A stretch of 64,000 bases of DNA from Streptomyces sp. NBC_01283 (GTDB lineage Bacteria; Actinomycetota; Actinomycetes; Streptomycetales; Streptomycetaceae). The DNA lies in assembly GCF_041435335.1 (NCBI RefSeq), contig NZ_CP108430.1, positions 620,001 through 684,000 on the forward strand, written 5' to 3'. Both the position numbers and the translations under genes were made by a program. This document shows positions 36,869 to 40,586 of this stretch, piece after piece. Below the pieces are notes generated by a model. It did not search any database, was not told where the DNA came from, and saw only the letters and a list, made by a program, of their open reading frames with translations. The stretch's first letter is position 1; every line of letters starts with the position of its first letter.

Positions 36869-37108
36869 ATGTCTGCCATGAAGAAGACGATGAGCGTGGT
36901 GCTGGCGACCGGTGGCCTCGTGATGGGCGCTGCTGGTCTCGCATCCGCCGACGCCGGCGCCCAGGGTGCTGCCGTGGGCTCGCCGGGTGTGCTCTCGGGC
37001 AACCAGGCCCAGGTCCCGGTCCACATCCCGGTGAACGTGTGCGGCAACACCGTCGACGTCATCGGCCTGCTGAACCCGGCCTTCGGTAACACCTGCGTCA
37101 ACCGCTGA
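36869..37108 (+). CDS. Short chaplin
   Basis: 79 residues, ATG with AAGGAG upstream. A Sec signal peptide runs to about Ala27. The mature 50 residues form one chaplin domain: SGNQAQVPVHIPVNVCGNTV, then VIGLLNPAFGNTC, with the paired Cys58 and Cys76 of the ChpE-H type. Chaplins self-assemble into amyloid-like fibrils that let aerial hyphae break the water surface. No LPXTG sorting signal is present, so it would be anchored only by assembly. A strong hairpin terminator follows. Confidence 0.95.
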   Translation: MSAMKKTMSVVLATGGLVMGAAGLASADAGAQGAAVGSPGVLSGNQAQVPVHIPVNVCGNTVDVIGLLNPAFGNTCVNR

Positions 37109-37153
37109 TCAGCCGTATCGCACCGTAGAAGAGCCTGTCGGCTCGAAACGGTT

Positions 37154-37200
37154 TGAGCGAGTGTGCCGCCGACCCTCCTTTTCGGTGGCACGCTCGCTCA
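37154..37200. terminator. Long bidirectional hairpin after the chaplin gene
   Basis: A 19-bp stem (37154-37172 with 37182-37200) with only two wobble pairs and a T-rich 9-base loop. It sits between the chaplin gene and the convergent operon ending at 37198, so it can serve both. Confidence 0.85.
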
Positions 37201-38136
37201 GTTGTTTGGTCGTTGAGATACGTCGGTGGTAACGCTGATGGCGGTGACCTCGTACACGGCCGCGGAGCTCATCGACAGTCCTCGGCAGGTCAGCTGACTC
37301 GGCGGTGTGCGGTGGGACCGCACCTCGACGTCGAGGGCCGTCGGAAGGGGCGGGCGGCCGGTGATGCGGATGCGCCAGCAGTTGTCTTCGCGGTGGGTGT
37401 CGACGACCGCGTAATCGTGCCTGCCTGCCGGGCCGAAGCGTTTGAGCACAGCTGCGACAGCGGTCTGCTGCGGTGGGAAGAGATCGGTGTATCCGCGCAG
37501 ATGGTCCGCGTGAATCCGGTCGGCCAGGTGCCCTTCGACTGCGGTAACCGCCGACGTGGCGTCGAGATTGCCGTAGTAGACGCCGTCGGGTGCGACGACG
37601 ACGTTGGCGGCGAACCGGTCACCGCCGACGTGCGTGCATTCCCACACCAGGTTCGGCCAGCGCTCGCTGAGGGCACGTCCCACGGGCCTGCCGCGCACGG
37701 CGCAGCAGGTGTCGTGCTGACCGTGGGCGCAGACCAGAACGACGGGCGGGCCGCCCAGCTCTCCGGGGGCGGAGGCATCAAGGGCGTCGGCGATCTCCGC
37801 CAAGTCCTGATCACGGTGCCATGTGCCCCATTGCTGGCGGTGGGCACCGGAGTTCTCGTGGCGCAGCACGGCCCAGCGGCTCGGGCCTTCGGGGCTGCGG
37901 CGTCCGTGCCTCCGGATCAGCAGGACGCGGGCCCGCACCGCGTGGGCGGCGGCGAACACGATTCCCTTGGTGTGCGGTTCGAGGTCGAGGCCGTCGAAGC
38001 CGTTGGGCGGCCAGCCTCCGCGGTGCTCGATGAGTACCCAGACGGAGCCGTACGGTGCCGTGCCCGCCAGTGAGTCGCCGCGTGTGCGCGCAGCGTCGGC
38101 GCAGAAGAAGCGTTCTGCCGCGGTCACCGTGGCCAC
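37198..38136 (-). CDS. Sucrase/ferredoxin-like family protein
   Basis: 312 residues, GTG start one base after the stop of the JmjC gene. The thioredoxin-fold [2Fe-2S] ferredoxin-like region carries CAHGQHDTCCAVRGRPV and WECTHVGGDRFAAN, the typical Cys and His cluster of the family. An N-terminal FFCADAARTRGD and a C-terminal His-Asp-rich part complete it. The family name is historical; several members are thought to bind iron-sulphur clusters and act in redox. As third gene of the peptide/JmjC operon it could supply electrons or keep the oxygenase iron reduced (inference). Confidence 0.82.
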   Translation of the reverse strand: MATVTAAERFFCADAARTRGDSLAGTAPYGSVWVLIEHRGGWPPNGFDGLDLEPHTKGIVFAAAHAVRARVLLIRRHGRRSPEGPSRWAVLRHENSGAHRQQWGTWHRDQDLAEIADALDASAPGELGGPPVVLVCAHGQHDTCCAVRGRPVGRALSERWPNLVWECTHVGGDRFAANVVVAPDGVYYGNLDATSAVTAVEGHLADRIHADHLRGYTDLFPPQQTAVAAVLKRFGPAGRHDYAVVDTHREDNCWRIRITGRPPLPTALDVEVRSHRTPPSQLTCRGLSMSSAAVYEVTAISVTTDVSQRPNN

Positions 38137-38137
38137 G

Positions 38138-39379
38138 TCACTGTTCTGCGGGCACCAGTACGCCCGCGCGCAGCAGTCTGACGACGAGGTCGACGCCCAG
38201 TTCGCCTGCGGTGCGGGCCTCGCCGTCGAGCATGCTGGTCACCGACGGCAGTTCGGTCTCCGGGAAGTCGAGCCAGCCCACGCGCGTGGACAGGCGCGAG
38301 CCCTCCAGCCGCGCTTCCAGCTGCCCGCGAAGGCGCACCCGTGAGTGGGGGCCGAGGCCGTCGACGGTCTTGAGCTGGGCCAGCGGTCCCAGCGGCGCGG
38401 GGCGTGCCTGACTTCGCCGGGTGCGGTGGAAGAGCGGAGCCGAATCAGCCTGGGTGAGGGCGGCGACGAGGCGGTCGCGGACGATGTCGAGCTCGCCGTC
38501 CGGCCCGTCCACGCCCAGGGGCAAGGTGCCGCGCATCTGGGGGTCGTCACGCAACATCGCGAGTGCCGACTGGGCGAGCTGTTCGGCCAGTGTGTAGCGC
38601 GTCCAGGTGTGGATCCCCAGCGTCAGGTGGATCGAGACCTCGCCCTGCGCCCGGGCGGCGTGCAGCCAGCCCCGCGGCAGGTAGAGGACATCACCGGGCT
38701 CGAGAACGGTGTCGATGTACGCCTCGCCCTTCGCGGCTTCGGCGACGGCGCCGCGGCGGTCCGTCCAGGGCTGGTCGCGCAGGGGATCGGGATGGACGGG
38801 CTCGTGGACGAGCCAGCGCTTGGCGCCGTCGATCTGGAGCACGAAGACATCGTGGACGTCGTAGTGGTCGTCGAATCCGCGGTTCTGCGGCGGAGTGACG
38901 TAGGCGTTCGCCTGCACCGGATGCCCCAGCTCCGTGCTCAGCCGGGCGGTGAAGTCCGCGACCGGCCCCCACGTGCGCTGCAGGGCTTGCAGGACCAGGG
39001 TGGCGCCGTCGGCGAACGTGCGCCACAGAGCGGTGTCGTCCAGCTGGTCACCGATGGTGGCGCCGACACCGGCGGGGGAGGTGAAGGACGACTCGGGGAG
39101 CGTGGAGCCGTCCTTGGCCACGCGGAGGAAGGGTGTACGCAGCCCGCGACGCGAGGTCAGTTCGTCCACGGCGTCAGCGGAGAACAGGTCCGAGAAGTCG
39201 CTCGCGCGGCGCGTGAGCAGCGCTGTGCGCGCCCAGATGTCGCGGGCGAAATCGTCCCGGCTCAGGCCGGTCAGCCGTGTCTCCAGGACGTCGGCGCCCG
39301 TGGCGTCCGTGGCGCCTTTCGCGCCCTTGGCGCCTTTCGCTGCGCCGACGTCCTGGAGCTCAGTCGCGGGGATGCTCAA
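38138..39379 (-). CDS. JmjC/cupin-type 2-oxoglutarate oxygenase (ribosomal-oxygenase-like)
   Basis: 413 residues from a TTG start overlapping the stop of the repeat-peptide gene (TTGA). After a low-complexity GAKGAKGATDATGA tail, the cupin barrel spans about 100-265. Fe(II) ligands are His172 and Asp174 (DDHYDVHD) and His240 (LPRGWLHAAR). A C-terminal helical and winged-helix-like region (about 270-413) matches the ROX/YcfD layout, enzymes that hydroxylate Arg or His of ribosomal proteins. Coupling to a peptide rich in Asp, with two His-Asp sites, suggests that peptide as substrate. Confidence 0.85.
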   Translation of the reverse strand: MSIPATELQDVGAAKGAKGAKGATDATGADVLETRLTGLSRDDFARDIWARTALLTRRASDFSDLFSADAVDELTSRRGLRTPFLRVAKDGSTLPESSFTSPAGVGATIGDQLDDTALWRTFADGATLVLQALQRTWGPVADFTARLSTELGHPVQANAYVTPPQNRGFDDHYDVHDVFVLQIDGAKRWLVHEPVHPDPLRDQPWTDRRGAVAEAAKGEAYIDTVLEPGDVLYLPRGWLHAARAQGEVSIHLTLGIHTWTRYTLAEQLAQSALAMLRDDPQMRGTLPLGVDGPDGELDIVRDRLVAALTQADSAPLFHRTRRSQARPAPLGPLAQLKTVDGLGPHSRVRLRGQLEARLEGSRLSTRVGWLDFPETELPSVTSMLDGEARTAGELGVDLVVRLLRAGVLVPAEQ

Positions 39380-39606
39380 GAGCCGCTGTCGGACACGCCG
39401 GCTCCGCCGTCGGCACCTCCGTCATGAACGCCCGGCGTACCCGCCGCGCCGCCGTCCGCGGGACCCTCGGCACCGCCGTCCGCGCCGCCGTCCGCGGGAC
39501 CCTCGGCGCCACCGTCGGCACCTCCGTCGTGAACGCCGGGCGTACCCGCCGCGCCGCCGTCCGCAGGGCCCTCTTGCTGGTTCGGATCCTGCTCGGGGTT
39601 GCTCAT
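39376..39606 (-). CDS. Asp/Gly/Ala repeat peptide, candidate substrate of the JmjC oxygenase
   Basis: 76 residues from an ATG with AGGAGG six bases upstream. A Gln/Asn/Pro-rich head (MSNPEQDPNQQEG) leads to two 35-residue-spaced copies of PADGGAAGTPGVHDGGADGG and a middle PADGGADGGAEG, ending VSDSGS. It has no Cys, Ser/Thr clusters or hydrophobic core. The repeats offer nine Asp and two His (26 and 61), the latter in identical GVHDGG contexts. A very strong ribosome-binding site plus overlap with the oxygenase gene suggests high expression and joint work. No family known; it could also be a disordered structural protein. Confidence 0.75.
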   Translation of the reverse strand: MSNPEQDPNQQEGPADGGAAGTPGVHDGGADGGAEGPADGGADGGAEGPADGGAAGTPGVHDGGADGGAGVSDSGS

Positions 39607-39762
39607 CGTTCCTCCTGAGAATCGAAGGGCTGGGATGGGGCAGGGCGCACTCTCCAGAGCCCTCTCTGCTGTCACCAAGCTCGCTCACGCAATTCCGGTC
39701 GGCAACCTGAAGGAATGACGGGGCGCCCGGTCGGGGGCATGACGCGACCGACGATGTCCGCG

Positions 39763-39793
39763 ATCACCCGGCAGTGGGTCATTGCCGGGTGAT
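39763..39793. promoter_or_regulatory. Inverted repeat between divergent genes
   Basis: ATCACCCGGCA (39763-39773) pairs perfectly with TGCCGGGTGAT (39783-39793) around 9 bases. It lies in the 196-bp gap between the repeat-peptide operon and the gene at 39803, right at the latter's start. It could be an operator, or an RNA hairpin hiding the ribosome-binding site of the plus-strand gene. Confidence 0.5.
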
Positions 39794-39802
39794 GATGGCT
39801 TC

Positions 39803-40117
39803 GTGGCGACAGATGACACGCAGTACACCGAGGACGGCCATTTCATCGTCATCAAGGGCCGACGCTGGCGGGCCACCGACCCCCTCGTACCCGACGATGA
39901 GGCGAAGCGCCTGACTCACCACCTCATGGCGGCTCGCCGGGCCGTCGCCGCCGCGGGCGACGACGAGGACGCGCGGAAGGCGGCCCGAGCGCGCGTGCAG
40001 CTCGCGAAGACGGGACTTGGGGAACGCGGTACGGCCTGGTGGGAACAGGAACCGGCCGAACGGCGCGAGCGCTGGGAGGACTGCTTGCGGCGACTGGAGG
40101 CAGGCGGGCACTCCTGA
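39803..40117 (+). CDS. Small conserved Streptomyces protein
   Basis: 104 residues from the GTG at 39803; a TTG at 39782 is also in frame. It starts with a beta-hairpin-like EDGHFIVIKGRRWRATDP and continues as charged helices (RLTHHLMAARRAVAAAGDDED, WWEQEPAERRERWEDCLRRL). Proteins with this start are common in actinomycetes and sometimes labelled 'Tol transporter', for which the sequence gives no support. Cytosolic, function unknown. Followed by a two-tier hairpin. Confidence 0.7.
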   Translation: MATDDTQYTEDGHFIVIKGRRWRATDPLVPDDEAKRLTHHLMAARRAVAAAGDDEDARKAARARVQLAKTGLGERGTAWWEQEPAERRERWEDCLRRLEAGGHS

Positions 40118-40328: not shown

Positions 40329-40586
40329 TCACCCGGTGGGCTCGTCCGGAACCGGCTCCTCCGCGTGGCTCTCCACGGCCCGGGATTCGCCGCGCCTTGC
40401 GGTGCCCCCCTCGTCCGTATCGGGGACCTCGGCCGCCTTGTCGCTGTCGCCGCCGCTGTCGGCAGCCTTGCCCACGTCCAGATCCCAGGCGTCCGGCTCG
40501 TCCGTCGCCTGCTGGTCGGGGAGATCCCTGGGAACGGGCGTGCTGCCGTCCTCGCCGGTTGAAGACGGAATCCATTCCTCGCCCAC
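40329..40586 (-). CDS. Small acidic hypothetical protein
   Basis: 85 residues, GTG start with AAGGAGGAG upstream. It is almost entirely polar and acidic (QQATDEPDAWDLDVGKAADS, PDTDEGGTARRGE) with no hydrophobic core, so it is probably disordered. It is encoded alone. The excellent ribosome-binding site is the main evidence that it is real. Confidence 0.6.
   Translation of the reverse strand: MGEEWIPSSTGEDGSTPVPRDLPDQQATDEPDAWDLDVGKAADSGGDSDKAAEVPDTDEGGTARRGESRAVESHAEEPVPDEPTG

Follow-up and report, generated by a model that had tools for sequence, protein, structure and literature searches.

A conserved gene cassette of a repeat peptide, a JmjC oxygenase and a Suc_Fer-like protein in Streptomyces is a candidate peptide-hydroxylation system

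We analyzed a stretch of 64,000 nucleotides from Streptomyces sp. NBC_01283 (positions 620001-684000 on contig 1 of the 9.59-Mb genome; the window) and focused on three genes lying head to tail on its minus strand, which encode a short Asp/Gly/Ala repeat peptide, an oxygenase of the JmjC_2 family and a Suc_Fer-like protein. The cassette is real and conserved, and it has no family name in the libraries searched. A small precursor-like gene stands beside an enzyme of a modifying type and the two are conserved jointly, as is expected of systems of ribosomally synthesized and post-translationally modified peptides (RiPPs); the peptide is the putative precursor. The peptide is quite probably a substrate of the JmjC enzyme. 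To the fuller reading, a RiPP-like cassette in which the repeats are hydroxylated on Asp by the JmjC enzyme, the Suc_Fer protein acting as an auxiliary redox protein, we assign a probability of roughly 0.57.

The partnership of the peptide and the enzyme was best seen among close relatives. A scan of 84,980 species genomes with JmjC patterns only, blind to the peptide, matched 193 stretches, 115 of which encoded a relative of the enzyme. The best 80 of these 115 relatives were taken as the named loci, and at all 80 an open reading frame (ORF) for a repeat peptide of like kind was present directly upstream on the same strand; two of them (L006 and L018) are cut by contig ends, with the motif still visible. 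The Suc_Fer gene followed directly downstream on the same strand at 78 loci, the exceptions being L070, which ends before the Suc_Fer position, and L081, which gave no tblastn match in 5,988 nt. The preliminary description of the window, made from its sequence alone, had proposed that the peptide is a dedicated partner of the oxygenase and had let this proposal turn on whether the peptide is conserved beside JmjC homologues; the retention of the peptide at every named locus bears it out. The peptide had also been described as repetitive and free of Cys. The repeats were seen again, and Cys was absent from all 92 peptides of the GPADGG type, to which the window's peptide belongs, and from 33 peptides of a different type with Asp-rich repeats (Asp-repeat peptides). 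No Pfam or NCBIfam family matched the peptide of the window, and no NCBIfam family matched six peptides from related loci. Three related peptides (P0133, P0173, and P0186) are named BatC protein in public databases; no paper on BatC with JmjC was found in the literature searched.

Among 199 Streptomyces genomes, 21 carried the enzyme (E <= 1e-100). The peptide was sought with a DNA pattern for EGPADGGA, and the same pattern written backwards was used as the control. At least two clustered matches were found in 20 of the 21 genomes with the enzyme, and the remaining one (G534) had a single match immediately ahead of the enzyme; the peptide and the enzyme of G539 were on different contigs. Only one of the 178 enzyme-less genomes (G504, two matches) had clustered matches, and the peptide there runs into a contig end. 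Scattered matches occurred in 23 further enzyme-less genomes (22 with a single match and G517 with two far apart), and the backwards pattern was found in 14 of the 199 genomes. The peptide was hardly found without the enzyme in this set. In a sample of 396 genomes from the phylum, 59 had a JmjC match (E <= 1e-3). The pattern was present in 13 of the sampled genomes, five of them with several matches, all beside a JmjC gene, and eight with one match, and the control was present in five. As the EGPADGGA pattern misses readings such as EGTADGGS, the sister peptides were found by motif instead. A GPADGG-type peptide was encoded in 12 of the 13 best-matching genomes of the sample, window included (tblastn >=257 bits, the next match being at 179); setting aside the genome of the window, 11 of the other 12 had such a peptide and nine had Suc_Fer. 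Since the genomes are related, these co-occurrence counts are not independent.

The phylum-sample JmjC loci examined were 59 (L097-L155) plus the five remaining matched places (L162-L166), among which 39 at 35-46% identity formed a distant group (L109-L144, L146, L162, and L163). In this group, the same slot was occupied at 34 of the 39 loci by an Asp-rich repeat peptide of another type, e.g., MRVEGLTDADMETVG...DGDATDVRDGDAADADGTDADGTDA, in which an LTDEDIETV-like leader is followed by Asp-rich repeats, and Suc_Fer was also found at 34 of the 39. Of the five loci lacking such a peptide, three (L135, L137, and L163) are cut by contig ends, and the other two are L119 and L133, the latter having an Asp/Gly/Ala-rich ORF without the leader motif. 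At L119/L161, the JmjC gene has no Suc_Fer match and is preceded by a peptide with a DDDIS start and repeats reading SADGTDQGVxGGTYGPRDA. An automatic rule (ORF of 45-200 amino acids with a Shine-Dalgarno sequence and at least 28% Asp after residue 20), applied to both strands of the first 37 distant loci (228 kb), selected 33 ORFs, every one of them in the slot; of the two added loci, L162 gave one ORF, in the slot, and L163 none.

Within residues 1-26, a DEDIET-like motif was present in 24 of the 33 Asp-repeat peptides (mean of 0.6 and maximum of 4 after shuffling), and in six of the eight peptides of a DDDI group. The latter still have GPADGG-like repeats, so that this group links the two types of peptide. 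When the four peptide-type labels were placed on an enzyme tree (84 rows, close relatives thinned, from 136 aligned sequences of 300-520 amino acids), seven changes were counted against 40.6 after shuffling, and none of the 200 shuffles was as low. The labels were clustered, but not each formed one clade. Overall, the peptide type tracks the enzyme tree.

Suc_Fer was not matched at 13 still more distant JmjC loci (L145, L147-L155, and L164-L166), and some of these have small peptides of their own. At L153, the upstream peptide has two units of ~22 residues (EPTEDDENLDAPGEHSQDTGDE), a similar leader and a weak ribosome-binding site. The JmjC genes of L145 and L147, from the same genus and at 32-34% identity, are preceded by 45-residue peptides that both end in SDGND and perhaps represent another JmjC peptide system. 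The ORF preceding the JmjC gene of L149, which we take to be TfuA-like, hints at another RiPP cluster.

The enzyme of the window matched JmjC_2 (PF08007) at 3.9e-28 in Pfam. Its His172, Asp174, and His240, described earlier as an intact iron site, are present and were invariant in all 136 aligned rows. A fold search with the predicted structure was topped by NO66, MINA53, and YcfD, and the predicted multi-domain architecture was the same as that of NO66/YcfD along nearly the whole length; strands and then three helices were predicted for residues 345-413. This likeness, together with the lack of a recognised leader in the Streptomyces peptide, agrees with an alternative in which the enzyme is a ribosomal-protein oxygenase and the peptide a separate acidic protein that is merely co-transcribed (e.g., a buffer binding metal or RNA). 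We consider this improbable: the peptide accompanies the enzyme at every named locus, the distribution of its types fits the tree of the enzyme, and the enzyme is accessory in Streptomyces, a distribution that is odd for a ribosome modifier.

The repeats themselves look like more than a product of chance. In a codon test anchored on three residues of the unit (PAD), 292 unit pairs from 70 peptides differed by 1587 synonymous and 388 non-synonymous changes, where single-base changes made at random in those codons would give 2.77 non-synonymous changes per synonymous one. A version of the test that fixed five of the eight residues in the search pattern (805 versus 4) was set aside as biased. Asp made up a median 14.6% of the GPADGG-type peptides and 37.3% of the core of the Asp-repeat peptides, and its positions outside the PAD anchor varied in only 8 and 6 of the 292 pairs. 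Because Asp is abundant in every peptide type, including many without His, it is the sole acidic or otherwise reactive side chain abundant in all of them. Ala and Gly, abundant too, may nevertheless be the targets. An enzyme performing other chemistry (Ala/Gly oxidation, desaturation, crosslinking, or backbone cleavage), or acting after another enzyme, seems a minor prospect to us. In its favor, both main peptide types are also rich in Ala and Gly, residues no less conserved than Asp in the repeat, and several oxidative enzymes act in turn in other RiPP clusters (PMC12707348), but no further conserved neighbor of at least 110 amino acids able to act first was found here.

The preliminary description had named Asp or His as the hydroxylated residue, and of these Asp is favored and His disfavored. 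Hydroxylation of His in a VHDGG motif, as by NO66 and MINA53 in ribosomal proteins, with Asp only structural, would suit the nearest solved relatives, which are these histidyl hydroxylases, and the occurrence of His in 83 of the 92 GPADGG-type peptides (217 times as HDGG), but we regard it as very unlikely, given that His is missing from the other 9 and from 25 of the 33 Asp-repeat peptides and that its position is among the most variable in the repeat (61 of 292 pairs).

The third protein matched the Suc_Fer-like family PF06999 (6.5e-16, Pfam), and a thioredoxin-like ferredoxin-like (TLF) fold was predicted for its domain at about residues 130-216. C136, C144, C145, H169, and D173 were invariant in 27 aligned Suc_Fer sequences. 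The motif is CX8C (C136 and C145)...HX3D (H169 and D173), not CX8C...HX3H.

The positions of the elements of the cassette are collected in Table 1. When re-read from the sequence, the coordinates and strands given earlier, the very strong ribosome-binding site of the peptide gene, the TTGA overlap and the one-base gap (38137) between the JmjC stop and the Suc_Fer GTG were all as described. The AGGAGG was perfect at 43 of 80 related loci and had one mismatch at 34, three being unscored. An NTGA overlap was present at 49 of the 80, with the JmjC start within 14 nt at 29 and farther away at two. The inferred JmjC start over 92 loci was TTG at 71, GTG at 10, and ATG at 10.

Table 1. Elements of the peptide-JmjC-Suc_Fer cassette, in positions of the window.
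Feature	Position	Strand	Remarks
Ribosome-binding site of the peptide gene	39611..39616	-	Perfect AGGAGG; ends four bases before ATG
Repeat peptide gene, putative precursor	39376..39606	-	76-residue Asp/Gly/Ala repeat peptide; ATG at 39606, TGA stop; unit EGPADGGAAGTPGVHDGGADGGA
TTGA stop/start overlap of peptide and JmjC genes	39376..39379	-	
JmjC_2 Fe(II)/2-oxoglutarate oxygenase (by family)	38138..39379	-	413 residues; TTG start at 39379; Pfam, predicted structure
JmjC Fe-ligand codon, H172	38864-38866	-	
JmjC Fe-ligand codon, D174	38858-38860	-	
JmjC Fe-ligand codon, H240	38660-38662	-	
JmjC C-terminal winged-helix-like region	38141-38347	-	Residues ~345-413; predicted structure
Hairpin, 5' arm	39342..39358	-	Perfect RNA hairpin of 17 bp, within the beginning of the JmjC gene
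Hairpin, 3' arm	39281..39297	-	44 nt separate the arms in this strain
Suc_Fer-like protein	37198..38136	-	312 residues; GTG start at 38136; thioredoxin-like ferredoxin-like domain ~130-216

The JmjC gene carries a 17-nt perfect inverted repeat early in its coding region (z of -4.73 in the window). Over the 120 nt that follow the peptide gene, z was below -2 at 67 of 92 loci, compared with 5 and 6 in two control windows. Covariation was examined in 48 rows aligned from 81 stretches, the row of the window being out of register owing to a loop insertion. Both sides had changed in all 13 pairs, and 75 double-change cells were counted versus 21.2 after shuffling (0 of 500 shuffles) and 12-34 in slid versions of the alignment; related rows can inflate the shuffle control, whereas the slid control preserves relatedness. 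With synonymous codons redrawn from the usage of each gene, the mean z at the start of the JmjC gene was still -1.78 (34 of 81 below -2), compared with -0.41 and -0.41 in the control windows (3 and 4 below -2). As the excess stability persists with the codons redrawn, conservation of the protein explains the hairpin in part but not wholly, and given the covariation and this residual effect with the protein held fixed, the hairpin behaves as a selected RNA structure in the GPADGG-type group. At the Asp-repeat loci, the signal was weak (mean z of -1.10, 9 of 33 below -2; controls 2 and 2). The place of the hairpin between a strong and a weak start suggests that it acts as an attenuator or as a protector of the peptide mRNA. 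The hairpin loop of this strain (39298-39341) holds an insertion that encodes GAK-type collagen-like repeats (GAAKGAKGAKGAT) and is absent from the other 47 alignment rows. Rfam returned no family match up to E 1 in window positions 37000-40000.

A frameshift fusion of the peptide and the enzyme was also considered. At the junctions worked by hand, the two frames differ by -1 (gaps of -4, +2, +5, +11, and +14), except at L080, where the gap is +7. The hairpin lies ~19 nt past the peptide stop, a distance too large for a slippery site preceding the stop codon. The frame relation, from the printed positions, varies among the Asp-repeat loci; the fusion was rejected.

Altogether, the following course of events may be proposed for the RiPP-like cassette. 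The first gene, with its perfect Shine-Dalgarno sequence and ATG, would make a small and presumably disordered Asp-rich peptide in large amounts, and the hairpin and the weak TTG start overlapping the peptide stop would hold the enzyme at a low level compared with its substrate. The NO66/YcfD-type enzyme would bind the peptide, with its C-terminal winged-helix-like region as the probable contact, and hydroxylate the Asp beta-carbon at many repeat positions. The Suc_Fer protein would assist as a redox partner that perhaps returns the iron to its working state after uncoupled turnover. Such a cassette would yield a peptide carrying beta-hydroxyaspartate along its length, which, judging from the chemistry of this residue, may bind Fe(III) or Ca(II) well. 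A further-reaching proposal, which we hold as tentative and rather unlikely, is that of a phylum-wide class of ribosomally made Asp-repeat peptides, each turned by one JmjC enzyme into a poly-beta-hydroxyaspartyl metal-binding polymer, with the dosage set through a hairpin lying in the disordered N-terminus of the enzyme.

Several observations weigh against Asp hydroxylation by a RiPP-like cassette. Modification of the peptide is something that we infer from the gene set and its conservation. Low variation is not particular to Asp, as a number of Gly and Ala positions in the repeat change equally rarely or more rarely (0 to 8 of 292 pairs). One JmjC gene at 48% identity, in G139 (L100/L160), one of the best-matching genomes, has neither a repeat peptide nor Suc_Fer; it is preceded by a 95-residue Asp/Gln-rich ORF with a good ribosome-binding site. 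Suc_Fer was not found by tblastn (E <= 1e-3) in L081, L103, L104, L119, L126, and L133, six loci that keep the enzyme together with the peptide or an Asp-rich ORF. No common leader protease or exporter was seen: among ORFs of at least 110 amino acids, no cluster of neighbors outside the three genes, as judged from positions, exceeded 7 of 81 loci, and none reached 4 of the distant loci L097-L146. The leader motif was found in 0 of 84 GPADGG-type peptides outside the DDDI group, including that of the window. The TM-score of the enzyme model to NO66 is only about 0.5, with 24-28% identity in the structural alignments. Finally, the C-terminal region alone gave no Pfam model match and no notable PDB sequence match, so binding in the manner of a RiPP recognition element (RRE) rests on the predicted order of the secondary structures.

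Compared with known systems, the enzyme resembles NO66/RIOX1, MINA53/RIOX2, and YcfD in its JmjC_2 family, HxD...H iron site and structural match including the C-terminal region, and differs from NO66, MINA53, and YcfD in being tied to a repeat peptide and a Suc_Fer gene. No title or abstract about a peptide-JmjC-Suc_Fer gene set was found in the literature searched (titles and abstract starts), and the motif strings EGPADGG, ADGGADGG, DGGADGGA, and HDGGADG occurred in no full text of it. An article by Iyer et al. of 2010 on peptide-modifying dioxygenases is said to predict that enzymes related to JmjC proteins act on peptides and on proteins rich in glycine, and part of the idea may therefore already be in print. 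BipG of the biphenomycin pathway is a JmjC enzyme that hydroxylates ornithine in a RiPP precursor (PMC12707348); it shares with the present proposal a JmjC oxygenase and a ribosomally made precursor, but acts on one ornithine within a many-enzyme cluster containing an MNIO, a radical SAM enzyme and a protease, while the present cassette comprises two or three genes and its peptide has Asp repeats. According to Bregman et al. 2025, the bacterial JmjC proteins (PF08007) closest to fish and algal RRE fusions, at ~30% identity, sit in RiPP-like contexts; the cassette, Asp-repeat peptides, Suc_Fer, and the hairpin are not described in section 6 of that paper (PMC12710340). The Suc_Fer protein resembles Apd1/Aim32 in its Suc_Fer-like Pfam match, predicted TLF-like domain and CX8C spacing, and differs in having HX3D where Aim32 has HX3H and in the further N- and C-terminal parts of its model (PMC8482512, PMC11126956).

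The surroundings of the cassette were also inspected. A gene for a chaplin-like protein (ChpA-C, 4.6e-30) on the plus strand (36878-37108) is convergent with the Suc_Fer gene. Upstream of the cassette and in the same direction lies an ORF for a very acidic protein of 85 residues (40329-40586, minus strand), whose GTG start is preceded by AAGGAGGAG and which matched neither Pfam nor NCBIfam. Promoter patterns upstream of 78 peptide genes showed no clear excess over shuffled sequences (sigma-R-like, 1 vs. 0.34; -35/-10, 0 vs. 0.14; extracytoplasmic function (ECF)-like, 4 vs. 3.16; iron-box-like, 0 vs. 0). A defence function was rejected after PADLOC gave no match for any of the three proteins, and so was a plasmid origin: the JmjC matches in 119 plasmid records were all below 60% identity and none covered 80% of the query.

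If the proposed reading is true, several lineages of Actinomycetota would share a system of two or three genes for peptide modification, in which an NO66-type enzyme acts on natural repeat substrates. Asp repeats would then join the substrates of JmjC enzymes, and an RNA element inside a coding region would tune the ratio of substrate to enzyme.

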